Shown here one piece after another: positions 8,555 through 26,681 of a stretch of DNA of 26,681 bases. The notes under the pieces are model-generated. The model was not told the origin of the DNA. It saw only the letters and a program-made list of their open reading frames with translations, and ran no database searches. Within the stretch, counting starts at the first letter, position 1; each line of letters begins with the position of its first letter. The DNA comes from a virus. Location: positions 1-26,681 of IMG/VR virus record IMGVR_UViG_3300009425_000078; one strand, given 5' to 3'. The translations under genes and the position numbers were made by a program.

Positions 8555-10183
8555 TTAAAATGAACCTCCTGTTATAGGGTTCTTCATAACAATCTTAAGC
8601 ACTTTAGTTGGGTCCTTTACCCAAACTGCAGGCATAGTCTGCGTCATCATAACTCTGTACCCGTTAAAGTGTCCAGAAGATGCGAAACCTTGAGTTCTTC
8701 CCATGTAGTCCATTGTACCATTCTGGTAGAACCACTTCAACTGATTATCCCAAGAAAGCTTAAGTAAGTTGATGTTATCACTACCTCCTTCAGTTATATC
8801 AAAAATGATAAAGCTGTAAGAAGAAAGAGGACGTCCATCAATAAGCGGATTCTCGATGTCATTAGTATGAAGGTTGTCAAACGCTGGGTTTAGAACAAAC
8901 TTAACATTAGCTAAGAAAGGAATAACGAAGCTTGTGTAAGCAAATCCAAATCCTAGATCCATACCTTTTCCGGTAATTGCACCAACATCAGCAGCTTGCG
9001 TAACCATACCGGTATTAGCACTACCAGCTTCTGCAGCAATTGCAGCATTAACTAGTTGCATACCACCGATACCTGTTTGTACAACAAGCTCGCGCTTAGG
9101 ATCTGGTCCTTCAAATTCAACTTTACCTGCATAGAAGTTGTATAGCTCATTCTTGAACATATCAAGACTGAAACCAGACTTGTTGTACACTCGTTTGAAT
9201 GAGTTATCTAACTGCTTCCATAGACCTACTGATAATCTTAGATCATCTGGTCCATCTTGCTTGATTCGTCCACCGTGTCCCCACATTAAGTAAGTCTCGA
9301 TGTCATTAGCAATCTTAGATAAGTGAGCTGCTTCCATAGACGTTAAGAACGTTCTAGAAAGTGATCCATTATCAAATGCCTTTTTAACATAGTCCTTACC
9401 CATTGCAGAAGCGATGTCCTCAACAGAAGAAAGAGAAGGGTCAACAGACTTATCAAAGTTTCTCCAAATCTCAGTTACTGGTACAGTACCATCAGCGTTC
9501 ATTCCACCCTTGAGCATTAAGTCTGCTCTAGAAGAAATAGAATAGTGAACGTGTGCTTCTGCTCCACCAACAAAGTTGTAGAACTCTCTGAAACCTGCTC
9601 CAGTAGAGATATCAGAGAAACGCTCTCCGTACTCACCTCTTGCAGAACCTTTTCTGAAGAACTTAGTTCCAGCAGCAAGGTACTTTACAGGAAGTCCAGC
9701 AGATGAGTCGTTATTAACGAGTTCAACTGTGTATACCCATGCATCACCTACTTGAAGGATATCATCAGCAGTAATGTAAAGCTCCATACCATTATACTTA
9801 TCATAAGTAATGATATCTCCATGACCAAACTCTCTTTTAGATAGTTTAATCTGGAAAGGAACTCCGTCTGCTCCTAAAGAAACAGGATCAGCGTCCGTAG
9901 CATTAGTACCTAAAGAGACAGGTAATTCTTGAGCTACAGGTGTTTGCCACTTGTATTCTCCTCTAGCATTGTCCACCATAATTGTGTTCTTACCTCCGAA
10001 AGATGCCATTTGGTATAAAGGCATCTCTACCTTCTGCGTCATCGCCCATAGATCCACAGGACCCATATCGGTTGGTTCAGCATTACCTAACATGTTTGTC
10101 AAGTGATAAGAATCAATATGTGAACTAGCTTTGTAGTTTGTGTCCCTCAGAAAGAGACCATTGTTTAAAACTGGTGTTGCCAT
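8555..10183 (-). CDS. Probable major capsid protein, 542 residues
   Basis: The protein starts MATPVLNNGLFLRDTNYKAS. It contains FFRKGSARGEYGERFSDIST (about residues 175-194) followed by HVHYSISSRADLMLKGGMNA, both of the kind seen in large capsid proteins of Bacteroidota phages, then helical segments (NDIETYLMWGHGGRIKQDGP) and a long C-terminal beta-rich region (NPAFDNLHTNDIENPLIDGR, YRVMMTQTMPAVWVKDPTKV). Evidence for the role is mainly its size, its low cysteine content, its place directly after portal and scaffold-like genes, and the strong terminator that follows. No cleaved N-terminal delta domain or adjacent protease was recognised. The start has the A-rich, SD-less context (GTGAAAAAATG) usual for Bacteroidota. 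Confidence 0.75.
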   Translation of the reverse strand: MATPVLNNGLFLRDTNYKASSHIDSYHLTNMLGNAEPTDMGPVDLWAMTQKVEMPLYQMASFGGKNTIMVDNARGEYKWQTPVAQELPVSLGTNATDADPVSLGADGVPFQIKLSKREFGHGDIITYDKYNGMELYITADDILQVGDAWVYTVELVNNDSSAGLPVKYLAAGTKFFRKGSARGEYGERFSDISTGAGFREFYNFVGGAEAHVHYSISSRADLMLKGGMNADGTVPVTEIWRNFDKSVDPSLSSVEDIASAMGKDYVKKAFDNGSLSRTFLTSMEAAHLSKIANDIETYLMWGHGGRIKQDGPDDLRLSVGLWKQLDNSFKRVYNKSGFSLDMFKNELYNFYAGKVEFEGPDPKRELVVQTGIGGMQLVNAAIAAEAGSANTGMVTQAADVGAITGKGMDLGFGFAYTSFVIPFLANVKFVLNPAFDNLHTNDIENPLIDGRPLSSYSFIIFDITEGGSDNINLLKLSWDNQLKWFYQNGTMDYMGRTQGFASSGHFNGYRVMMTQTMPAVWVKDPTKVLKIVMKNPITGGSF

Positions 10184-10211
10184 TTTTTCACGTGTTAATT
10201 AATAATTGTTT

Positions 10212-11522
10212 TTAAAATCTTTTGAATATGTTGTTACTCCTTGGTAGAGTTCGCTTAGGCGATCGTGCTTTTGCTTGCGTCTTAGGTTCACCACCTGAAG
10301 ATGCTTGCTTATTGGCTTGTGCAGTCTTTAACTTACGCACTGTAGCTTCTACAGCCGCGTTTGTTCCTTTTGTCTTTAATTGGTCCTTGTATCCGGTAGG
10401 ATCTGCAAGTAACCATAATGCTTCTGATACCAGTGTGTAATTTGGCTCTACAAACTGATACTTTTCTAATAGATGACCTAATAGATTTGTGTTCTGTCCT
10501 GAGATAGACGGATAAGAAGGATTAACTAGTCCGTCATATAACATAGACTGTGTCTTCTTATTGACTTTCATATCTCCGAGCGTACCTTCTTTTAGTGTGT
10601 GGTAAACATTAGACATATAATTTTCTGAGGCTTTTTGCTGCTGCTGTCTTTTCATCTCCTGTTCTTGGAGCTTGCGAGCTACAACTGCTTCAGACATCTT
10701 ATCTAACTTTGGCTTAAACTTGTTAGCTTGCTTTTCCAGCTTACCTAAGTCTTTCCAAATCTCAATCTCTTCTTCAATATCTTCAATTGTACCATAACCT
10801 GTTGATGATAAGTATTCTCTAACTACCTGCGACTGTCCTTCAACAGTACTAGTGTCAGTACTACGTGTTTCTTCAACTTGTGCTAATGTAGAAAACAGAC
10901 CTTTAAGATCCTGTCCTCCATCAGCTACATACTTAGCAGCAACCTGTAATTCTTGAGGTAAACTATCAAAGAATTGCTTAGGAGTTTCACGTCTAACTTT
11001 ATTAGCCCTTTCATCCATGTTGGCCTGAATAAGCTCTTTCCAGTCTTTAGCAGAATAATCGTCTAGTTCTTTATCATCATCGAAAGGAACTATTTCTCCT
11101 TTATCAATCATTTGAGTAAAGACATCTGACATACCTTCAATACGACGTCTGCCTTTAGCAGTTGACTTGCCCTCTTCTTCTTCGGCTAACTCTAATCCTT
11201 CATTAAGGATTTCATCAACCTCATCAGCTGTGACTGAAGGTTCTTTAAGTTTAGTTTCCTGCTGTACTGAATTATCTGTACTTTCTTCAGGTGTCGAGCT
11301 GTTGTCCTCATTTTCTACTTCTTCTTCTGATACTTCCTCTGATACTTCTTTGTCAAGAAATGATAGATCTACATCCTTTCCTCTAGAAAAGACATTTGGT
11401 TTTTTAACTTCTTCTTCAGGTAGTGTAATAGAGCTAGCCCCGGGAGCTCCTGAAAAGATCTCATCGAGGTTAATTTCTACTTTTTCTACACTAGTTGTTT
11501 CCATGTTTGCTTCGTTAGCCAT
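10212..11522 (-). CDS. Scaffold-like protein, 436 residues
   Basis: The N-terminal 120 residues are highly acidic and low-complexity (LDKEVSEEVSEEEVENEDNS, GLELAEEEEGKSTAKGRRRI). A helical, charged middle at about residues 250-300 is probably coiled coil (LGKLEKQANKFKPKLDKMSE, then VARKLQEQEMKRQQQQKASE). The C-terminus is strongly basic (KARSPKRTLPRSNNIFKRF). An acidic N-terminus, coiled-coil centre and basic capsid-binding tail is the standard design of phage scaffolding proteins. The gene lies between portal and capsid genes, which is the usual place. It ends 28 nt before the capsid start and begins 106 nt after the portal stop. No protease active site is visible, so a scaffold-protease fusion is not supported. 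Confidence 0.7.
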   Translation of the reverse strand: MANEANMETTSVEKVEINLDEIFSGAPGASSITLPEEEVKKPNVFSRGKDVDLSFLDKEVSEEVSEEEVENEDNSSTPEESTDNSVQQETKLKEPSVTADEVDEILNEGLELAEEEEGKSTAKGRRRIEGMSDVFTQMIDKGEIVPFDDDKELDDYSAKDWKELIQANMDERANKVRRETPKQFFDSLPQELQVAAKYVADGGQDLKGLFSTLAQVEETRSTDTSTVEGQSQVVREYLSSTGYGTIEDIEEEIEIWKDLGKLEKQANKFKPKLDKMSEAVVARKLQEQEMKRQQQQKASENYMSNVYHTLKEGTLGDMKVNKKTQSMLYDGLVNPSYPSISGQNTNLLGHLLEKYQFVEPNYTLVSEALWLLADPTGYKDQLKTKGTNAAVEATVRKLKTAQANKQASSGGEPKTQAKARSPKRTLPRSNNIFKRF

Positions 11523-11628
11523 TTTGTTTTGGTTTTAATTAATGGTTGTTACATATACAATATACTTTAACATCTAGAGTAAACCTTAGACATTTGAGGT
11601 ATTGTTATAATTTTTTCACAGTATATAG

Positions 11629-14388
11629 CTAAGACTTCTTCTTCTTCTTTTCTTTCGTGTCTTTAACGTCATATTTGTTTTTATTTTCACGAGCTATCTG
11701 CAGATTCTTGTTAGCAATGTCACGCTGTGTAGCTAACTTTTCTTTCTCAAGTGAAAGCTTCGTTTTACTGTCCGCATTATTAACTGTTGCCTGTTCTCGC
11801 TTGAAGTTCATCTGCTCTCTATATTGATCCCTCTGACGGATGTCTTTCATAGCATCCTGAAAATCACTTTCTTTATTTTCATTTATGTCAACCTGCGCTC
11901 CGTAACCTGCAGACCTGATCTCAGCAACTGTAATATCTTTTTGTCTTTCAGCTTCCTGCTGTGACATTTCAAACTGACGTTGAGCTTCCTTTTCTGCTTT
12001 CTGTGCCTCAAGCTGCTGCTGTTGCATTTCCTGCTGTTGCTGCATCTCTTGTTGCTTTTGTGCAGTCTGCTTAGTTTCAGCATCTTTAAGTATATCAGAC
12101 ACCTCAGCAATAGAATCAGATTTAAGTACATTACCTAGATCATATATAGAAGCTCCTGTAGTATTATTTTGTAAAGCCATCTGCTTTAACTGCTCTAATG
12201 TAGCTCTGTGATTTGTTTTAGTTGTAGCAAACACATTAAAATCTCGTAGGAGAAGTTCCTTACCATTAATAGTAAAGTTAACTTTCTCTGCTTCAGTAGT
12301 CATATACGTAAGACGCACTGAAGGATTTGTACTATGGTAATGCTGAGCAAGGTCCGTTCTCATTTGGTGCACTCTAGGCATCAAGTGATCTGCGTGTTGT
12401 GTAAAGTACATCTCCGTCTGAGCGTAAGACTGATTCATAGCTTGTGTTACACCTGTTGCAGTCTGTTGCGCTATAGGCGCTCCTAGTCTTTGAGGATTAA
12501 CTCCTATCGCATCAAATGCTTGTTGCTTAAAGTGATTAGCCAATTGAACCCTAGACATTAACCTATTTGTCTGCTCTAAGTTAAGAGTTTGGTAGTGGTT
12601 GAAGTTTACAGCATTTTCTGTATTAGTGATAGATGTGTCTAATGGCATCATACCAAAGTCCTTCATTGCTACGTAAGCCTTCTCTAAATTATTCTTTCCC
12701 CAGTCTTCTCCCATGGAGTGTCTAGGTAAAGCGTTTTGGTCAAACATAATTACAGTACCTAACTCGTCTACAAGTATGTCAGCAATTTGATTGTTAACCA
12801 TATTATAACCTACTTGATAAGGTTTCATTAAGTCAACTAAAGATGTAGATCGTGTGTTACGGTCAGAAAATACGCGACCCTCTACAGGTAGCTTACATCC
12901 ATATAAAGAGTCAGTCCCTTTAAACTGATATTGTACTCGTCCTGGCTTATTTCTATTTATCCCTATATAGATAGGATTAACCTCATGGTCTTCAGTTCTC
13001 CACGCAGCAGGAGCATTAGGTCCAATTTTAACCCCACCCCACACGTCATTTATCCACAACCAATCTATATGCTCTCCCTCAATAAGATTATCCTTTGTTT
13101 TTTGCTTAAACAAGTGAGTGTTGTAAATAGGCTTTTCTGTAACCTTATACGTATCATCAACTATTGCTTGAATAATTTCACCCTCTGGTGTTATTCTAAT
13201 AAGATGACCCACCATGCGCTGCGTCTTCCAGTAAGTTGTTGTCACACGCATCATGTCAGAATCTCCCCAATCAGAGATGTCACCACCTTCACTAAGTAGC
13301 CACTGCACCACGTCACCTTCCATGCTAGGATTATGTCCGTGGTTTGACATGAGACGTCTATAATCTAATCCAGGAGCTTCTGTATTCCATTTATGTGATT
13401 TAGACGCATCATAATAAGATCCGTCATTCTGCATACCATTGAGCAGGTATTTAGAGTTTGTTGCAGGATGCAGGTTTTGCATGCTTCTTAACTGGGGCTC
13501 ATCCATCAAGTAACCATACTTATCTATTACATCAGCTACGGTCATCATATCACATTTCCCTACAAAGTTAGAATCTGAAATGTATCTTGAATCTGGTGAT
13601 TTTTGATAGAAGGTTAATACAGGATTCCATAACTCAACGTCATAGTCATCCTCATTCATTTTAAAGTGCCAGAATTCTCTGTCACATATAAGCATATCTT
13701 TAAACGCCCTTTCCTCTAACTCAGCCATTTTAAAACGCTCCTCATCCACATTTAATTGATGTGATGCCCATTCTTCAACTAGGCTTCTATAGTCTTTAGA
13801 GAAGAAGTCCTCTATTTCAGGAAGGGTTTTTAATTTCTCGGGCGATATCTCTTGTTTAAACTCTTCTGATTCAGGGTCAGCTCCCTGTTTAACCATCTCC
13901 ATGGTTAATTTAGCACGTGCATCATTCAACAAGTTCTCTTCAATAAGAGCTCTCTTTGATTCTAACATCTCATTATATGATGAGTCATCAACAGCCCTAA
14001 ATTGTACTTTATTATATCTTTTAGAGAACTCTCCAACTAAAACATTTATCACATTGGGTATAATAGGATAGAATTTTAACTCTAATGCCGTCTCATCCTC
14101 CTTTGTTAACACGTCCATAAAATCAGCGTATTCATTATCCTCTTCTATGATGTAGTCTGTTTTATCTATAATACCTTTTGCAAGTTTATAGTTCTTAAGT
14201 AAACGTCGCCCGTTTTTCTTAAGTTGATCCATTCCTCTTAATTCAAGCCAATCTAAATTCCAGGCAGCCCAATCGTCATCCTTTTTCTTTGAAGAGATGA
14301 ATTGTAAGGGCTGCGTTAAAGATGCATTGACAGGAGACTTGTCAACTTTAGCCCCCTTCTTGAGATCCATTGCGTTATATACCTTCAT
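11629..14388 (-). CDS. Portal protein, 919 residues, with long C-terminal coiled coil
   Basis: Portal rings form the DNA entry vertex and dock the terminase. The call rests on position directly after the terminase, a length suitable for large P22-type or crAss-like portals, and the region LVGEFSKRYNKVQFRAVD (about residues 117-134), a wing/stem-type segment typical of this family. Later stretches such as GRVFSDRNTRSTSLVDLMKP and GYNMVNNQIADILVDELGTV, then QQTATGVTQAMNQSYAQTEM, fit the portal crown and helical barrel. From about residue 770 the protein becomes a long glutamine- and charge-rich coiled coil (QEMQQQQEMQQQQLEAQKAE) ending in a polylysine run. The start is 1 nt after the stop of a 27-codon micro-ORF. 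Confidence 0.85.
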   Translation of the reverse strand: MKVYNAMDLKKGAKVDKSPVNASLTQPLQFISSKKKDDDWAAWNLDWLELRGMDQLKKNGRRLLKNYKLAKGIIDKTDYIIEEDNEYADFMDVLTKEDETALELKFYPIIPNVINVLVGEFSKRYNKVQFRAVDDSSYNEMLESKRALIEENLLNDARAKLTMEMVKQGADPESEEFKQEISPEKLKTLPEIEDFFSKDYRSLVEEWASHQLNVDEERFKMAELEERAFKDMLICDREFWHFKMNEDDYDVELWNPVLTFYQKSPDSRYISDSNFVGKCDMMTVADVIDKYGYLMDEPQLRSMQNLHPATNSKYLLNGMQNDGSYYDASKSHKWNTEAPGLDYRRLMSNHGHNPSMEGDVVQWLLSEGGDISDWGDSDMMRVTTTYWKTQRMVGHLIRITPEGEIIQAIVDDTYKVTEKPIYNTHLFKQKTKDNLIEGEHIDWLWINDVWGGVKIGPNAPAAWRTEDHEVNPIYIGINRNKPGRVQYQFKGTDSLYGCKLPVEGRVFSDRNTRSTSLVDLMKPYQVGYNMVNNQIADILVDELGTVIMFDQNALPRHSMGEDWGKNNLEKAYVAMKDFGMMPLDTSITNTENAVNFNHYQTLNLEQTNRLMSRVQLANHFKQQAFDAIGVNPQRLGAPIAQQTATGVTQAMNQSYAQTEMYFTQHADHLMPRVHQMRTDLAQHYHSTNPSVRLTYMTTEAEKVNFTINGKELLLRDFNVFATTKTNHRATLEQLKQMALQNNTTGASIYDLGNVLKSDSIAEVSDILKDAETKQTAQKQQEMQQQQEMQQQQLEAQKAEKEAQRQFEMSQQEAERQKDITVAEIRSAGYGAQVDINENKESDFQDAMKDIRQRDQYREQMNFKREQATVNNADSKTKLSLEKEKLATQRDIANKNLQIARENKNKYDVKDTKEKKKKKS

Positions 14389-14389
14389 G

Positions 14390-14473
14390 TTAGTCTGATG
14401 TTCCGTAGTCTAAATAACTATATGATATATCGGTTATGTCAGGGTCCGAGCACGTCATTACATAATCTATCAT
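14390..14473 (-). CDS. 27-residue micro-ORF between terminase and portal
   Basis: ATG at 14473-14471 shares its A with the terminase stop (TAATG). The stop at 14392-14390 lies 1 nt before the portal ATG. The peptide begins MIDYVMTCSDPDITDISYSY and ends in an LDYGTSD segment. It is acidic and tyrosine-rich, with no known motif. Two reasons to believe it: it fills the gap exactly, and the same TAATG coupling is used at 17448 and 16930 in this operon. Its function is unknown; a packaging accessory peptide is only a guess. Confidence 0.55.
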   Translation of the reverse strand: MIDYVMTCSDPDITDISYSYLDYGTSD

Positions 14474-16677
14474 TATCCTATATTTTTAAATGGGTTCCTT
14501 TTATTACGGCCAGTATGCTTAGATTTACCCTTACCAATATTCCTAAAAGGACTCGTATTTAATTTACGCCTTTTTTGGGGTTTATCCAAGACTTCCAATG
14601 ATTTATCCCTTTCCCTCCTCTTAACGTATCCCCTGTTCGCATGTTGCATATTAGCAAACGCAACTAATGCTGCAAACGCCACTAACCTATCTACGTTAAG
14701 TCCTGGGAAGTATTGTAACATTTCAGTGACTAACATAGGGTCAGGTATTCTTTCTACACCATACGTTTTTTTATAGACTACACCATCTTCACCTGTCTCC
14801 TCATGTGTTACTTCTCTGATAAACTCGATAGCATAAGAAATTAGATGACTTTTAAATAGCGTGCCTGTATTCTTCCATCCATATTCCTGGAATACACTTC
14901 TATTTGACCCTAGCTCTTTTAGGAATACTATCTGACTTTTGGGCACTAAATACTTTTGTTTTCTTTCTCCTATCATATACTGTATAAACAAAGAGATGTT
15001 GTTCTCAACAATAGTCCAGGCGTTATACCACTCTATAATGAGTTTTAATTGCTCATGCGTTTTATTAATGTCATCATATCTACCACACCAAGAAGCTACA
15101 ATTTTGTCACCCTCTATAAAAGTTTCTAAACCTGAAGGTGTTTCTTTAGTTACCTCTACAGGGTTTTTATAGACAAAGATGCTACACAGAGAGTCTGATG
15201 TAGTAGTCTTTCCTTCTGATACAGGGTCGACAGAAGCATAGTAAGTTCCAAAATCAGGCTTCTTGATAGGACGCTCCCAAACCTTTAATACCCCCCTTTT
15301 ATCCTCTTGCTTTTTGTTTACAGGGAATTCTGTAATGGGTATCCTTCTTGAGGGGTTAGCTTTTATCTTACCTTCTGTCTCTTCCAGGTCTAATAGTTCA
15401 AAGGAATATTCCTTATCCTCTATACGCTTCATTTGCTTTGCTAAGAAGCCTTGAGGGAATATAGATTCTTTCCTATAAGCAAAAGCCTCTGCTATGTCAA
15501 TAGGCTTCTGTGAAATTCTAAGTTGATATTGTTCAGCCTCTAAATCTTTCTTCCACACCTCACGCTCCTTCTTAATTGAGACTAACGCTTCCTCAACTAG
15601 AGAATTACCAAACTGATCTAGGAAAGGGGGCATAGACCATTGCTCAGGAATAAATAAACCTGCTATCCCCAAAGTACCCTTATCATCCATAAGGTCTGTT
15701 TCAACACCTAGAATACCATTAGCTTCAGGATTAAGGATCATTCTCTTTAAAGGTTTGCAATGATCTAAATCTCCTACAGAACCTGCCGCTATAAACTGAC
15801 CAGTAGTCATCATTCCTGAGGACATTGCAGGACGTAAGTACTCATAGGTCTTATCCATTTTTGGTGCAATCCCTGCTTCCTCATGAAAAAAGAAACTACA
15901 AGGTCCACCTACACCAGCAGTAGCATTTTTCTCGAATGATGCTCCCTGTATCTTAGATCGTAATCCCTTGAACGTCTTGCGGTTATTGATCCTTACTTCA
16001 ATCTTTTGTTCCCATAACAAAACCTTTCCTGGGTTACTTGGTCTATACCATGCCGTGTGCTCATTAAGAAAGGCTGCATACTCATCTAGAAACTTCCAAG
16101 AACCTTTATCATTTACGTAATCTTTCAGTGAAGCACCTATCTTACATACTGCTCCTTCTTCAAACCAATATGCATTAAGTAACTTGGCCATGTGGAAATA
16201 AGATGAGGCTATCTGTCTCTTCTTTAAAATAGCTACATGTTTGTAGTTTATTTCAGCCATTATCTCATAGAGAGCCATGTGATATTGAGCATCCCTAACC
16301 TTAGCAAAACCATATTTCTTCTCTTCCTTGTCATAAATAGGTAAGAAGTTTAACCACATGTAGTAGTCACGTGTTAGGTACCAGGTTCCACCTTTATTTT
16401 TATATATGACACCTTCTCTGCATTTATTTTTTTCACTTTCCCAATACTTAATAAAATCTTTACTACGTATAGGTTTATCACAGTAAAACCCCTGAGTATT
16501 AAAAGCTCTTGCTTCAGAGTTAAAAATAAAAGCAGTTTCGTCAAAGTCATAGTGCCCTGGTACTTTAAATACAGAGTCTATAAATACACGAAAATCCTCT
16601 AACGTCTTGAATTCTGTTTCTTCCCAGACTCCTTCATTTAGCGTAGGGACTGTTTTATATAGCGACGATGACTGCAA
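14473..16677 (-). CDS. terL: Terminase large subunit (TerL), 734 residues
   Basis: The packaging motor ATPase and nuclease. After an N-terminal extension (KNKCREGVIYKNKGGTWYLT, about residues 84-103) comes a Walker A-like segment KKRQIASSYF (152-161) and a Walker B-like segment SFFFHEEAG (about 261-269) with the catalytic Glu pair. The nuclease domain shows YASVDPVSEG (Asp484), VENN (Glu558) and a late Asp in LNVDRLVAFAAL, together the three acidic positions expected of the RNase H-like fold. The C-terminus is basic (KRRERDKSLEVLDKPQKRRK). The Walker A lacks the canonical GKT/GKS, as is common in phage terminases. The start overlaps the GroES-like gene by 23 nt. No small terminase subunit was recognised nearby. 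Confidence 0.93.
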   Translation of the reverse strand: MQSSSLYKTVPTLNEGVWEETEFKTLEDFRVFIDSVFKVPGHYDFDETAFIFNSEARAFNTQGFYCDKPIRSKDFIKYWESEKNKCREGVIYKNKGGTWYLTRDYYMWLNFLPIYDKEEKKYGFAKVRDAQYHMALYEIMAEINYKHVAILKKRQIASSYFHMAKLLNAYWFEEGAVCKIGASLKDYVNDKGSWKFLDEYAAFLNEHTAWYRPSNPGKVLLWEQKIEVRINNRKTFKGLRSKIQGASFEKNATAGVGGPCSFFFHEEAGIAPKMDKTYEYLRPAMSSGMMTTGQFIAAGSVGDLDHCKPLKRMILNPEANGILGVETDLMDDKGTLGIAGLFIPEQWSMPPFLDQFGNSLVEEALVSIKKEREVWKKDLEAEQYQLRISQKPIDIAEAFAYRKESIFPQGFLAKQMKRIEDKEYSFELLDLEETEGKIKANPSRRIPITEFPVNKKQEDKRGVLKVWERPIKKPDFGTYYASVDPVSEGKTTTSDSLCSIFVYKNPVEVTKETPSGLETFIEGDKIVASWCGRYDDINKTHEQLKLIIEWYNAWTIVENNISLFIQYMIGERKQKYLVPKSQIVFLKELGSNRSVFQEYGWKNTGTLFKSHLISYAIEFIREVTHEETGEDGVVYKKTYGVERIPDPMLVTEMLQYFPGLNVDRLVAFAALVAFANMQHANRGYVKRRERDKSLEVLDKPQKRRKLNTSPFRNIGKGKSKHTGRNKRNPFKNIG

Positions 16678-16930: not shown

Positions 16931-17448
16931 TATAGTTGATCATATGCTAAACCCAACCCACCACGAACTGTACTTTTTTGTTCTTCCTTCATGTCTTTAT
17001 AAGCTCCTTTAAATGATTGTCGTATTGCATCAAAGTTTTTTGCTGCACTAACTAGAGAATTAATATTACCATCTCTTCCATGCTCTATTTGAGTGTGTTC
17101 CATGTAGTGAGCAAGGTTATCAATCATGGCCTTAATACCTTTATATGCTCTTAACGTAGGCGTCTCATATAAAGCAGAGCATCTGTCTAAAGCATATCTT
17201 ATCTTAGGACATTCTAGATCTTCGTCCATACTAATCTCTCCTAGAATTATTTCTTCCTTGTCTTCCTCGGGAACATTAAAGAAAGGATTAATATCAGGAT
17301 CAGGGCACGTCATATAGAATATATACTTATAAACTTCAAGGTGTGTGTCAGGGTATGTTTCCATTATAGCTTTTAAAAACTTTAATGTATAACAATGCTC
17401 GGATGGTATTACCTTACTGTTCTGAACGTCGAATAGTTTTATAAGCAT
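16930..17448 (-). CDS. Conserved phage protein of unknown function, 172 residues
   Basis: No named domain. The N-terminal half is helical and contains SEHCYTLKFLKAIMETYPDT and YIFYMTCPDPDINPFFNVPE. The C-terminal half is helical, with a Tyr/Asp-rich section (RCSALYETPTLRAYKGIKAM, then HGRDGNINSLVSAAKNFDAI, and a basic SFKGAYKDMKEEQK segment). It is probably cytoplasmic and soluble. It is joined by TAATG to the nuclease gene upstream and to the GroES-like gene downstream, and sits just ahead of terL. This suggests a DNA-packaging or small-terminase-like role, which is inference only; no helix-turn-helix is obvious. Confidence 0.8.
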   Translation of the reverse strand: MLIKLFDVQNSKVIPSEHCYTLKFLKAIMETYPDTHLEVYKYIFYMTCPDPDINPFFNVPEEDKEEIILGEISMDEDLECPKIRYALDRCSALYETPTLRAYKGIKAMIDNLAHYMEHTQIEHGRDGNINSLVSAAKNFDAIRQSFKGAYKDMKEEQKSTVRGGLGLAYDQL

Positions 17449-20948: not shown

Positions 20949-23006
20949 TTATTTTTTCCTTCCCCAATTAGAGGGACCTCCATGTTCTAAGCTCATTACG
21001 TTAGCAGTTGACATGTATGTTGCGTTATCCACAGTCTCTCCTTTACCTAGTTGATCTACTAAATCAAGCCATGTTTTATTAGGAGCCGCGGGAGGCATAG
21101 CGTTTTGTGAGCCCCCACCTTGGAATTTAGGACCTGTAGGAAATCCCGTAGTTTTTTCAATGACGCGTTTCAATCTGGTGTTATCCTTATTTTGCTTTAT
21201 TTTATCCTGTAATATTTTAATTGCTAGAGGACGCAGTTCAACAGGATTTACGTCTTTATATCTCTCTTCTTTTTGCAATGTCTTTATTATAGGAGCAATA
21301 GCTTTTTCTAGTTTCTGATCTTTCTGAAGGTCATTGTCAAACCATTTGTGATTAAATACAGGATCTATTCCTTGATCCATAAATAATTGTGCTCTTGGGA
21401 AAGCACCATATTGTTCCATAAATTTAGCATTTGGATTTTCTCCAAATACGCCTGACCAAGCATCTGATATTGGTTGCCCTTTTTGATGAAGAGCTCCTAG
21501 ACCTACGTCAATAGCATCAGGTACCATTAAACCTCTTGATAAACCTTTCCACAGCCAGGGGTGATTCAATACTTTTCCATATGGTATCTTACTATTTTTC
21601 AGAATGTTAGCTAAAGTATTACCTGCTTTATCATATCCTCCAGGTCCCTTAGTTCCATAAAGAGCCTCTCCTACAGCATCGAGTGCTTGAGGAATTTTTA
21701 ATTTTGATGCGTGTGCTAGAGGATTAAGTCTTGCTAATCCTTTAGGTGCTTCAGTTAACCATTTTCCTGTAGGTATAGATCCGGAAATAGCATCATATAT
21801 TTTCTTAGCTGCAGCTTCTCTTGATAATGCTTTATTAGCCTGCTTATATGTAACTAAAATATCACCTCCTTCATCTACAACTTGACCTGTCTTTAATAAT
21901 TCATCTACTTTAGAAAGAACATTTGTTTTCATATCAGCAAAACCCCCTCTAAATCCTTGTTCAACCGGACCTAGCTCAACATGTGGAACTATGTTTCCTC
22001 CTCTTATTCCAGAACGCCCTCCTATCCCTACACCTGTACCACTTACCGGATTATGCAGTCCTGTATTACCAAACATACCCGGTGTTTCAATCCACGGCTT
22101 ACCCATAACATTAAAAGGATTATGAACTGATAATCCCCCTCTAAATTTAGAACCATGGTTCCAAGAATACAAACCTGGACCCATGGCATGCATTCCACCT
22201 CGTGTTACTTCTTCTATTTGTTCATTATCTGCACGACCTAACCATGTTTGTAACTGTTGTGTATCATGCGCAGAAACTGTCGCACCAACAAACGGAGTTT
22301 TCATATTACCAGCCATTTCTATTCCTGTATATAGAAATCCTGGTGGTAAATTCATGTCACGAGTAACATTTGTTCCTGTAGCGTCTGCAAGTGAATTACC
22401 ATATCCTTTTAAATGAGCTGTATTAAATAGTAGACCAGCGCCAGGTCCTGTAGGATCAAGGTCTAACTCTAAACCAATACCCAGCGGATCAGAATATGGG
22501 AAATACCCTCTGAAGCCAGCTCCGGGGCCACCTGCTGATGTAAATGTAAACGTAGGCTCTACTCCTGTTCTATTTAATTCATTCATAAATGAGGTTTTGT
22601 ATTCCTCATTTATAACTTCTCCCGTTTCTGGATCTAATCTAGGAATATTAAATTTTTGTGGATTATGCATACCCAGCGCTTCAGTCCATCCTCCCGCTGC
22701 ATCTAAAGTAAACGGGTTTAAAGTACCGCTTTCACCTTGACCTAGGAAATTAGGATCTAGACCAACTCTAGGTAAGAAATTATCATATCTAGAGGGTGAT
22801 TGTGAAATAGCCCCCTGTTGCATAAGTCGTTGAACTAGCTGCGGATCAGCCACAGCTTCAGGTCCTGTATTACGGGGTACACCTTTTTTCTTTGCACCAT
22901 ATTTTGCTATTAACCCTTCCTCACTAAGCATGAAGTCAGGTGTCTCACTAAGAGATGTTCCTTTGGCTGTCTCTTTACCTTTTTGTGCCTTTCTTAATTT
23001 TTTCAT
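20949..23006 (-). CDS. Large virion-type protein with N-terminal LRKAQKG motif, 685 residues
   Basis: The protein begins MKKLRKAQKGKETAKGTSLS, matching the LPKAQ-G junction motifs of the upstream giant protein, and at about residue 50 has GPEAVADPQL, paralleling GYEAVADPEV there. Residues about 100-340 are Gly-rich with repeated strand-turn signatures (GFRGYFPYSDPLGIGLELDL, FRGGLSVHNPFNVMGKPW, GVGIGGRSGIRGGNIVPHVE), suggesting a beta-barrel or beta-helix type domain. The C-terminal third is helical (APIIKTLQKEERYKDVNPVE). It starts with an ATGA overlap of the upstream stop, so the two proteins are coupled. It is probably a minor capsid, ejection or tail component; I do not recognise a family. 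Confidence 0.8.
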   Translation of the reverse strand: MKKLRKAQKGKETAKGTSLSETPDFMLSEEGLIAKYGAKKKGVPRNTGPEAVADPQLVQRLMQQGAISQSPSRYDNFLPRVGLDPNFLGQGESGTLNPFTLDAAGGWTEALGMHNPQKFNIPRLDPETGEVINEEYKTSFMNELNRTGVEPTFTFTSAGGPGAGFRGYFPYSDPLGIGLELDLDPTGPGAGLLFNTAHLKGYGNSLADATGTNVTRDMNLPPGFLYTGIEMAGNMKTPFVGATVSAHDTQQLQTWLGRADNEQIEEVTRGGMHAMGPGLYSWNHGSKFRGGLSVHNPFNVMGKPWIETPGMFGNTGLHNPVSGTGVGIGGRSGIRGGNIVPHVELGPVEQGFRGGFADMKTNVLSKVDELLKTGQVVDEGGDILVTYKQANKALSREAAAKKIYDAISGSIPTGKWLTEAPKGLARLNPLAHASKLKIPQALDAVGEALYGTKGPGGYDKAGNTLANILKNSKIPYGKVLNHPWLWKGLSRGLMVPDAIDVGLGALHQKGQPISDAWSGVFGENPNAKFMEQYGAFPRAQLFMDQGIDPVFNHKWFDNDLQKDQKLEKAIAPIIKTLQKEERYKDVNPVELRPLAIKILQDKIKQNKDNTRLKRVIEKTTGFPTGPKFQGGGSQNAMPPAAPNKTWLDLVDQLGKGETVDNATYMSTANVMSLEHGGPSNWGRKK

Positions 23007-26000
23007 TTGTTTTTAAGTTCCTGACGTTTTGCAACATCCTCGTCTGTAATGTATTTTCTTGTTTCAGGATCAATGTAGAAACGGTCATATATTTTGAAAG
23101 GGTTTCCTGCTTGATGCATTATAGAAGCTTGAATATATGCTTGATTTTCAGTCTCCTTTCCTCCTTCCTCTCCCCTTTCTTCTCTTCCCTTCTCTGTTCC
23201 GCTCCTCCATCTTTTACTATAGTCACCAGGTGAAAAGTCCCAAGCGTCTGATATAGACATGTAGGGTAACTGTCGTTCTTCATCCCATCCTAAACCCTGT
23301 TTATGATGTGCTAAATTAGCATCTAAAAGGCGCGAAGCGTTGTGTCCCCTGCTATAAGAGTCAGCAAATAATGTTTTTTTATTGGTCATAAAGTCCTCCC
23401 AAGTTATACCCTCATCTTTTAGTAAGCCATCAATAATAGAGGAAATGTCATCCTGATTAGAGATCCACCGCCCGGTGGGCCTCCCCCCTTTTTTTCCTCC
23501 ATAATATTCGTCAACAAGGTTACCTTTTAAAGAATACGATGGAAGCCATTCGTAATAATCATCCTTGGGTGTATATATAGATTTGGCTAAATCACGTTCA
23601 TCTTCCTCTTGGAAATAAATATCTAATAACTTATGCTTCCCTGGGGGTCCCACCCTTCTATTCATATTACTTCCATCGTATTGCCAGGTGTCTTGTGCAC
23701 CAAACCAACCTGCAACTTTATCAAAAGTTAAGCCTACAAGAGGAACTGAAGATCTTGTAGCACCAGAATGCTGACTGGCTACTTCTTTAGCAAGGTCTTT
23801 AATAACATCCCCAAAAATAGGCGTATCCATTAACCAAGGGTTTTTATAGAGAAAATCTTGTCTCCAGTCTCCACTTGTGATATCTCTTATCTCGGGGTTA
23901 TAATACTCCTCCTCCTCAGTCATAGTCGGTGATGCCAGCTGTGCTCCCACTTCGGGATCAGCTACAGCTTCATAGCCAACTTGAGCTTTAGGTAATGTTC
24001 CTCCATTTCTTTTTATGCCATAACCTGCTAATTCTCCTTCACGTGTTGTATGGTTTCTATTCACCACATTGCCAAAAGCGTTTGTCTTCTCCACATCTCT
24101 AACTAAAAGATTATCTTCCTTGTCATATATATTAAATACTTGCTTGTATTTTTCTCTGTTACCGTTATCTACTGATTTAACATTCATATTAGTATGTCCA
24201 TCGCTATCAGTAACCGTGGTATCTTCCAAAAAAGTTCCCTTCCACTTCTCCTTACCATTATTCTTTATTCTAGAATTCTCTTCATAAGAGCTATTGCTAT
24301 CAACATAAGCGTCAGGAAGAACTTCTCCTCTAGGTGACATTGATCCTCCCGGATATTGTTGAGAGAACGATATTTCAGGTCGGGCTATAGGTGTTATTGG
24401 TCTAGGAATTAAAGGTTGTATTGTTGTATTACCCGTTGTTGTTCCAGTGTTACCTTGAACTCCTGCATTACCCTGAAGTTCCCTATTACCTTGAACACCA
24501 AAATCACCATAAAATCCTTCTGTAGATCCACCAGGTTCATCAGATCCATTTAGTACCGTAGGTTCCGTACTGTCTCCAATTTCTAAACCATAAAAATCCT
24601 CAGTTATAGAAGCTTCATCACCCGGTAGTGTTCTTTCTCTATTCTGTATGTCACTTTCATTTTCTGTTTGTGATTTTTTCCACCTTTCAGCTTCAATCTT
24701 GAAATCCGCAAGACTACCTTTATTACCTGCAGCCAACCAGTTTTCGTAACCCACTTTCCAGTTTACACCACGCTTAGAATATGCAACATCGCGGTTACCA
24801 GTTCTTTCATCAATTATTGTTGTAGCACCTGTATCCGGATTTACATTTCTGCTTACTTCTGCCCAATCTCCGTATATAAACGGATTTGCAGAAGTTTGAT
24901 TTAACGCAAAACCATCTTGTGCTTTAGGTAATGAACCACCCATTTGTTTCTCTTGAATCTTATTCTTACCTCTATAATACTCTAACTCCTCTGATTCTAC
25001 AGGTCGTACTTTCCAACTTTTGCTTTTCTTATCCCACACCTTATAGTAGTTAGGTTCTTGTCCTGTACGCATACGACCATTAACTTTATATACGAGCTCA
25101 GGAGCACGACCAGATGTAGGTATAGAGGTACTAGTCTGAAGCTCTTTATCAATTGAATCTCTCTTTATTGTTTTAAGTTTAGATTTAAGTTCTTTAGGAG
25201 ATGTGTGCCTTATCCTTTCCCATGTTGGGTAGGTAGTTGGGAGAGCAACCCAATTCCATCTTTCATCTTGGGGTGGAGGTCTAAATGCAAAGTTGTCATT
25301 GTATCTATAACGGTCATCAAAATCTTGAGGACCTCGTACCTGTGGATGTCGAACTTTATCTAAACGTAATTTTTCTTTTCTCCATTCATCTCGTTCTTCA
25401 ACTGAATCAAATCCATCCATAGTTGGATTATCATATGTGATTTCATCCCCTTTCTGTTTCATAGACAAGGGAAACTTCTGAGTGATTCCTTGGGGGTATA
25501 TATTAAACTCTTCATAAAGTCGTTTACGTTCTAGGGCTTCGGGAGAATTAGGGTCCTCTCCTCTACCTTTAAAAGTAACAAACTTATCATAGAGGCTTTT
25601 TTCTCCCCCTTCAGGAGAAAAGTGACTTTGGTATTCCCTGTCATCTCTCATCCAATAATTAGAAGCGTCTGGACGCTTACCCTCTAACTCTTCTCTTAGT
25701 TTTCTTGAGTTTTTGGTTGCCATCCTATTTCCTTGATGCTCTGGCATCAGGTGAGAAAATTCTGCCATAAATTGATAAACTTGATCTTCTCTGCCTTCAC
25801 TCATTATTTTATCTTTGTACCATTGAGCTACATCTGGATCATTTACCATATCAAAGTAATGATCTCCTGGTACGTTATAATCAGCGTCTGGCACGTAAAT
25901 AAATTTAAGTTCCGGGTATGCATGGGCTCTAAAACTGCTTTCACCCTCCTTTACCTTATATTTTTCTGGATGATTTTTTGCATAGTTAGAAGGTTCGTTG

Positions 26001-26681
26001 CTTAATTTTTCTAATCCCACATACCTTGACATATCTAGTAGATCCATCCAATGAATATCCCCCTTGTGTTTTATTTGAGCCACTGGGTTTCTTCCATAAC
26101 CTGCCCCACCGCGAAATTTAGCCATTGTCCCTAGTGATGATGGTATACCTCCTCTTGTTTTTACGGTGACAGGTGATGTTTGGACTGTGCCTTCTGGTGT
26201 TTCAAATAGATCATAAATTCTTTTTTCTGCATCTGTTAGATTATCATAGCTCTTATCAGATAAAGTTGATATTTCTACACCAGGAAGATTAGTTACACCT
26301 TTACTTTCTAGCCATTTTTCATAGGTTGCCTGTGGAAGATGGTTAATACCTAAGTGCTTCTTAAGCTCCTCATAACTCATGACTGGAGTCTCACTAGCCC
26401 CCTTGTCGCCCTGATATCTCGGTAATGAACCTCCAACTTGTTTATTTTCGATAGGCATATTTGTTTCAGGATCATAATGTACTCTACCATACATTTCTGC
26501 TGGAGTTAAACCTGCAACCGATTGTATAGCATTCTCTAACCAGCTAGACATATAGTCTGCTCCACGACCTTCCGTTTTATCTGAAAGTGGGTTTACATCC
26601 CATTTATCATAATAAGAAAGGTAAGAACCTTTTTCATCCTCACCTTTATCTAAAGTGAAGTTACCTAAAACATCACCATAA
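23003..26681 (-). CDS. Giant modular virion protein, candidate polyprotein (5' end beyond window)
   Basis: The frame remains open from the stop at 23005-23003 to the right edge: 1225 visible codons, with no in-frame stop before the ATG at 26551, so that ATG is internal and the true start lies outside. Three GG(S/T)LP(K/R)xQ motifs, at about 26402-26446, 24900-24946 and 23958-24012, divide it into blocks of 310-510 residues. Two blocks end in similar tails: YYDKWDVNP then YDPETNMPI, and ISDAWDFSP then YIDPETRKYI. FMAEFSHLMPEHQ (25733-25770) offers an E--H----H arrangement that might be a metal site, but this is weak. Little coiled coil is present, so a tape measure is unlikely. A large internal or tail-associated virion protein, perhaps processed at the repeated motifs, is inference. 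It overlaps the next gene by ATGA. Confidence 0.85.
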   Translation of the reverse strand, partial: YGDVLGNFTLDKGEDEKGSYLSYYDKWDVNPLSDKTEGRGADYMSSWLENAIQSVAGLTPAEMYGRVHYDPETNMPIENKQVGGSLPRYQGDKGASETPVMSYEELKKHLGINHLPQATYEKWLESKGVTNLPGVEISTLSDKSYDNLTDAEKRIYDLFETPEGTVQTSPVTVKTRGGIPSSLGTMAKFRGGAGYGRNPVAQIKHKGDIHWMDLLDMSRYVGLEKLSNEPSNYAKNHPEKYKVKEGESSFRAHAYPELKFIYVPDADYNVPGDHYFDMVNDPDVAQWYKDKIMSEGREDQVYQFMAEFSHLMPEHQGNRMATKNSRKLREELEGKRPDASNYWMRDDREYQSHFSPEGGEKSLYDKFVTFKGRGEDPNSPEALERKRLYEEFNIYPQGITQKFPLSMKQKGDEITYDNPTMDGFDSVEERDEWRKEKLRLDKVRHPQVRGPQDFDDRYRYNDNFAFRPPPQDERWNWVALPTTYPTWERIRHTSPKELKSKLKTIKRDSIDKELQTSTSIPTSGRAPELVYKVNGRMRTGQEPNYYKVWDKKSKSWKVRPVESEELEYYRGKNKIQEKQMGGSLPKAQDGFALNQTSANPFIYGDWAEVSRNVNPDTGATTIIDERTGNRDVAYSKRGVNWKVGYENWLAAGNKGSLADFKIEAERWKKSQTENESDIQNRERTLPGDEASITEDFYGLEIGDSTEPTVLNGSDEPGGSTEGFYGDFGVQGNRELQGNAGVQGNTGTTTGNTTIQPLIPRPITPIARPEISFSQQYPGGSMSPRGEVLPDAYVDSNSSYEENSRIKNNGKEKWKGTFLEDTTVTDSDGHTNMNVKSVDNGNREKYKQVFNIYDKEDNLLVRDVEKTNAFGNVVNRNHTTREGELAGYGIKRNGGTLPKAQVGYEAVADPEVGAQLASPTMTEEEEYYNPEIRDITSGDWRQDFLYKNPWLMDTPIFGDVIKDLAKEVASQHSGATRSSVPLVGLTFDKVAGWFGAQDTWQYDGSNMNRRVGPPGKHKLLDIYFQEEDERDLAKSIYTPKDDYYEWLPSYSLKGNLVDEYYGGKKGGRPTGRWISNQDDISSIIDGLLKDEGITWEDFMTNKKTLFADSYSRGHNASRLLDANLAHHKQGLGWDEERQLPYMSISDAWDFSPGDYSKRWRSGTEKGREERGEEGGKETENQAYIQASIMHQAGNPFKIYDRFYIDPETRKYITDEDVAKRQELKNK

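Follow-up and report, generated by a model that had tools for sequence, protein, structure and literature searches.

The GGxLPKAQxG motif, a probable joint between modules of large, probably internal virion proteins of Crassvirales-related phages

Multi-domain ejected proteins, i.e., the polyvalent proteins (PMC5512222) and the cargo of crassviruses, are already known, and so is prohead proteolysis (PMC10052503). Polyvalent proteins, which occur in phages as well as in conjugative elements (Iyer et al. 2017), are large and multi-domain, carry peptidoglycan hydrolases and other activities and are predicted to be delivered with the DNA; their processing is also predicted and is attributed to zincin domains embedded in them (PMC5512222). 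In the crassvirus phi-crAss001, the cargo proteins gp45 and gp46 were identified as virion proteins by mass spectrometry. There, gp45 was read as a single chain spanning the capsid and the tail, with one ordered piece bound to the portal (residues 425-552) and another in the tail (residues 214-245) (PMC10172136). In T4, phiKZ and SPN3US, the propeptides of several internal head proteins share a short motif, often near their N-termini, and a known protease cuts after glutamate; processing by a prohead protease is described for SPN3US, for example (PMC10052503).

The DNA analysed here, hereafter called the window, is a whole stretch of 26,681 nucleotides (26.7 kb) from IMG/VR. It carries successively an ORF with several copies of a motif, a 685-aa ORF, small genes (PhoH, exonuclease, GroES), the genes of TerL, of the portal, of a scaffold-like protein and of the major head protein, and tail genes, all encoded on the minus strand. 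The block extending from TerL to the major head protein (8555..16677, minus strand) matches phrog_6681, phrog_6547 and phrog_11589, and all four genes have homologs in 20-21 of the 21 genomes compared. The TerL shares about 25% identity with those of Crassvirales and of the Flavobacterium phage Fpv20, and the presence of a crAss-type TerL, portal and head protein relates the phage to Crassvirales. The mapped relative G021 also has CrAss_Ring_1, CrAss_Ring_2 and the muzzle; in the window, the only match of this kind is to Ring_3/4 and is below the cut-off (E 0.037). The motif genes of the window sit upstream of TerL, so that its gene order differs from the arrangement seen in G021 and phi-crAss001. 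Between the GroES and exonuclease genes lies a strongly conserved gene encoding a 172-aa protein (16933-17448, minus strand), whose length is constant and which is found at this place in 18 of the 21 genomes.

The ORF located at the right end of the window (23003-26680, minus strand) encodes a modular protein of at least 1225 aa without any match in Pfam or PHROG, and its 5' end is open at the contig edge. The first in-frame ATG is found at 26551. The 43 residues encoded upstream of this ATG are homologous to the interior of a 2567-aa protein, residues 1-101 matching the interior of this ORF in L090/L155, which indicates that the long gene runs off the contig. Three copies of the motif are found in this protein, all on the minus strand: GGSLPRYQG (26408..26434), GGSLPKAQDG (24911..24940) and GGTLPKAQVG (23975..24004). 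Using a profile built from relatives, they score 19.9, 35.6 and 30.5 bits, respectively, all above the maximum of 16.6 bits reached by 1000 shuffles of the protein. The downstream gene (685 aa; 20949..23006, minus strand) begins with the variant MKKLRKAQKG (22977..23006, minus strand) and its ATG overlaps the TGA of the long ORF as ATGA. This variant scores under the profile threshold; its assignment rests on the KAQxG core and on the relatives, where the gene starts with MKKLRRAQKG (L002/L003) or MKAQKG (L001). Thus, the arrangement described in an earlier note on this DNA, with three internal copies and KKLRKAQKG opening the next gene across an ATGA, was recovered in full.

The motif is not restricted to the window. 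A degenerate DNA pattern for GGxLPKAQxG was found in at least 119 IMG/VR contigs and, among the matches listed, the motif is in frame within large ORFs in 115 of 119 contigs; the same pattern read backwards gave 0 in 100 contigs. A narrower pattern gave two matches in 257 Gb of prokaryote genomes. One of them is a 52-aa chance frame; the real one belongs to a 1139-aa ORF on L132 (WLWP01000004.1), a probable phage contig that had been assigned to a Pseudomonadales MAG. Of 50 motif contigs, 31 encode a crAss-type TerL; those that do not include several short fragments. When contigs were picked by their head protein alone (n=25), the exact core was found in seven. A profile scan of four long head-protein contigs devoid of the exact core revealed several degenerate copies in three of them (0-1 in decoys) and weak copies only in the last one.

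Over 117 contexts, the information is limited to [FYK][KQR][YEDN]GG[SQE]LPKAQxG, i.e., about 13 residues from positions -3 to +9, the flanks carrying none; the fixed letters of this consensus reflect the search pattern, a reservation that does not apply to positions -3 to -1 and +2. An iterated profile, which includes KYQ, EAQ and QAQ forms, detects 430 sites in 197 of 703 proteins versus 6 in reversed proteins. These sites are dense in proteins of more than 800 aa. They are enriched within the first 40 residues (46 versus 18 expected) and depleted within the last 60 (6 versus 21), and GG is found at 233 of 369 internal sites versus only 7 of 33 N-terminal ones (P = 3.5e-6). The 100 residues on either side of the 430 sites have average charge, hydropathy and disorder propensity and are not Lys-rich, which speaks against a Lys-rich or disordered linker; the only bias of the flanks concerns positions -3 and -2, which tend to be aromatic and basic. 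The charged, Lys-rich stretch that the earlier note had seen before each copy therefore does not hold as a general feature. Conservation of the motif at the DNA level is weak: codons mostly vary, identity among copies within one contig being 0.60 versus 0.49 expected. Near-invariant core residues combined with mostly free codons indicate a selection acting at the protein level. Other forms of the motif were encountered. A zinc-ribbon-like N-terminus (CTCGWSWNKSDSSKKDMY.CHECG) directly precedes a GGWLDxY variant at ORF starts of L101, L119 and L043, and GGWLDKY forms the end of these or of related genes. In addition, a 128-aa protein with a MPKAQAG-type start (KKITKKMPKAQAG) is encoded by G021:C1:19392-19776, upstream of the TerL block and apart from the other motif genes.

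Comparisons between proteins whose motif had been masked reveal what lies on both sides of it. In 118 cases, versus a shuffled mean of 2.65 (maximum 10), an alignment ends at most 5 aa away from a motif in each of the two proteins; alignments begin at such a place 34 times versus 2.2 (maximum 8). These counts are not probabilities because related sequences are not independent. As about 98 distinct sites are involved in the stops and about 47 in the starts, this border signal does not come from one family. The identity between homologous upstream modules drops to 0.11 at +8, i.e., at the residue following Q, and to about 0.06 beyond; that between homologous downstream modules is mostly near background before the motif and reaches 0.3-0.45 from +8 on. 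This drop and this rise place the border inside LPKAQ, GGx belonging to the upstream module and xG to the downstream one. Alignments also pass through the motif in 208 cases, which indicates that neighbouring modules can stay together.

Individual proteins illustrate this organization. Residues 404-598 of the long protein of the window, which end at motif 2, match residues 206-389 of a protein from L003 (61.5%), which end at its NLPKAQNG. In the same way, residues 654-902 match a protein from L045 (63.7%) and this match ends at the last residue of motif 3. In L038, motifs immediately precede the start of a DUF5872 domain and that of a LysM domain, the latter located 5 aa past its motif. Motif proteins of relatives also include SLT, YkuD, amidase, lysozyme, SET and M91 modules. 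The SET domain is found inside a motif polyprotein of L016 (1213-7485, minus strand), and M91 effector-peptidase matches were obtained in two scanned members. It is thus very probable that the motif marks module borders, as the earlier note had proposed, and this joint is where modules are shuffled, become fused or separate into distinct genes.

The splitting into genes is visible at gene ends, which fall at motif borders more often than expected (18 versus 4.2 and 32 versus 6.6). The latter count comes from places where a gene ends in one genome while its homolog continues in another: the homolog has a motif within 20 aa in 32 of 64 such cases (6.6 expected, maximum 21). For example, one gene ends with ...LTLKMEYQKGGEK just before its stop codon, whereas its homolog continues as ...LTLKMEYKQGGEVSLPKAQDG. 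Such ends imply that a continuous chain is not needed at these places. Besides, stand-alone genes have the core at their start in 20 cases versus 7 expected. A coincidence of gene starts in the same comparisons (37 versus 10.8) was discounted, as two subject proteins dominate it and one shuffle gave a higher value (48).

The window itself contains such a split. Module 1 of the long protein (residues 1-82; 26435..26680, minus strand), which includes a ...YDPET... domain, runs in frame into motif 1, and its homologs in L090, L146, L060 and L172 are each followed by a motif or by a GG remnant. The C-terminal domain (residues 1120-1211; 23048..23323, minus strand) is a diverged paralog of module 1: its Smith-Waterman score against residues 13-82 is 65 versus 28.6 for shuffled sequences (sd 5.0, Z 7.3). 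Whereas the first copy leads in frame into GGSLPRYQG, the last one is followed by a stop and by MKKLRKAQKG, i.e., by a gene border instead of an in-frame motif. The proposal that the last module has become a gene of its own is borne out by this boundary, which sits where the paralogous domain otherwise continues in frame into the motif. Furthermore, L001-L004 encode the 685-aa protein at 85-90% identity; in those where an upstream gene is present (L001 and L002/L003), its end differs and looks unrelated to that of the window. The earlier note had suggested examining in homologues whether splits and fusions always fall at the motif: gene ends do match motif sites, and "always" is too strong given the 208 passages.

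The motif proteins are likely to be ejected virion cargo, judging from their position directly after the muzzle gene in G021, the one genome fully mapped, and from a module shared with gp45. In phi-crAss001, gp45 and gp46 occupy the same place after the muzzle gene as the motif proteins of G021. The shared module, ...GKFTA...FA.NA.KW, also present in homologs of gp45, has AFGG at its end in gp45 and NKAQDG in L077. Unlike the proteins of the motif clade, gp45 (L125:41987-44515) is devoid of LPKAQ. It has six A[FY].GG sites (207, 259, 330, 388, 425 and 560) versus 0.39 expected, such sites being fewer in other gut crassviruses. Two of its regions, 264-329 and one starting at about 369, are found again in other crassviruses, their borders being close to these sites. 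Since the ordered pieces 214-245 and 425-552 each lie within one interval between sites, gp45 may correspond to more than one mature protein.

As the motif joins modules and genes frequently end there too, it probably acts as a signal for cleavage or for docking. The likeliest function, to which we would give slightly less than an even chance, is that a virion protease reads the joint in trans and cleaves it. Such a protease would free the modules, each consisting of one domain or a small set of domains, during head maturation, by cutting within the core or immediately behind it (KA/Q or Q/x). Modules seem functional when joined or separate and N-terminal copies are mostly devoid of GG, so the core would be LPKAQxG and GG looks like a hinge that would make the joint accessible. 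Cleavage at the N-terminal copies would strip off short basic leaders, in the way that internal head proteins of T4 and phiKZ type lose theirs. Processing by a trans-acting protease would thus account for the joints, the splits and the leaders. However, stand-alone genes keep the core and, in L001, only a Met precedes KAQKG, so that a cut there would do nothing. The ordered 425-552 domain of gp45 includes an apparent counterpart of the motif, AFGG at 425-428 (PMC10172136), so this diverged site at least seems uncut. The conserved head genes of the window have no match to any protease family, and no prohead protease was recognised among its head genes or when the proteins of G021 were scanned twice against Pfam, with part of the giant ORFs covered. 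Several candidate readers were considered and set aside. A retropepsin, like gp66 of phi-crAss001, is absent from 31 motif contigs. The conserved residues of the ORF preceding the capsid gene and of the 172-aa ORF point to a scaffold rather than to a protease. A putative HExxH metallopeptidase (DUF2201_N) of about 390-440 aa is encoded by 25 of the 31 motif contigs (e.g., G021:C1:103087-103845); it lies outside the late block in G021 and is missing from six contigs, and thus stays a weak candidate. There is also no signal of a genome-specific co-evolution of motif and reader inside the clade, as motif variants do not diverge together by genome (0.542 within, 0.543 between).

The main rival to cleavage, which we regard as a serious though minority possibility, is that LPKAQxG is an uncut docking or threading element. 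It would be an N-terminal tag by which each module binds a conserved component of the virion (portal, tail barrel or scaffold) for packing or ordered ejection, fused modules staying joined and separate ones carrying their own tag. Docking accounts for the missing protease, searches of head genes and motif contigs having come up empty, for the core kept at gene starts even as M-KAQKG, and for the ordered site of gp45, whose ordered pieces adjoin its A[FY]GG sites (PMC10172136). The enrichment of the motif near N-termini, its depletion near C-termini and its constancy throughout a clade with an equally conserved portal and capsid also agree with it. However, docking does not account for the division of the motif between modules: xxxGGx, its left half, goes along with the module upstream, and the motif does not move as one unit. 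Moreover, some genes end with GGWLDKYQ-type sequences, which makes the element also C-terminal, and the binding partners named are candidates. Breaks located inside the core could also point to a neutral hinge, spread by DNA homology for module shuffling, maintained by recombination and read by no protein, and the slightly high codon identity within contigs goes in the same direction. Such a linker is nevertheless improbable, since the protein-level selection described above is not expected of it and since conservation extends to single-copy and N-terminal sites. The GG preceding most internal sites recalls Gly-Gly processing, either by a ubiquitin-like pathway (ThiF E1 and JAB), phi-crAss001 encoding ThiF and a weak JAB match, or by a GG-X protease of adenovirus/ASFV type. 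This reading is hardly credible: ThiF and JAB were found in 0 of 31 motif contigs each, GG is missing at most N-terminal sites and hence does not accompany every site, and conservation falls after GG.

If the cleavage reading is extended to the whole clade, swappable cargo modules would be packaged as polyproteins whose near-invariant joint is cut by a virion protease, and the capsid and tail pieces of gp45 could be separate mature proteins. This broader picture is tentative and, taken as a whole, rather unlikely. If it is true that the joint is cleaved, many ejected proteins would be freed from few genes and the enzyme reading the motif may be of a new type. Whichever of cutting or docking applies, the motif provides an objective parser of large unannotated proteins into modules in an abundant phage group, and it predicts the start points of mature proteins or of docking units. 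With it, the way in which crassviruses store and eject their cargo can be put to the test, as can the question of gp45 being a single chain or several.

No near-invariant border motif common to many unrelated modules turned up in the searchable literature; several known systems share some features with it. The Azobacteroides phage ProJPt-Bp1, another member of Crassvirales (L128, L130), contains A[YH]GGx[VI][PR]R[YF]xxG about ten times or more in five large proteins encoded near or after the portal gene; its consensus differs from that of the motif clade, and the likeness lies in the recurrence of a consensus of its own. As in polyvalent proteins, several unrelated domains are combined in one polypeptide in relatives (LysM, SLT, YkuD, amidase, SET, DUF5872), and the long ORF of the window has a mosaic homology despite the lack of a Pfam match. 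Unlike in the motif clade, no short conserved border motif is described for polyvalent proteins in the available part of the source (PMC5512222), and the counterpart of their zincins in the clade is limited to M91 matches in 2 of 27 proteins. Compared with T4, phiKZ and SPN3US, what distinguishes the clade is that the motif joins the modules of polyproteins.
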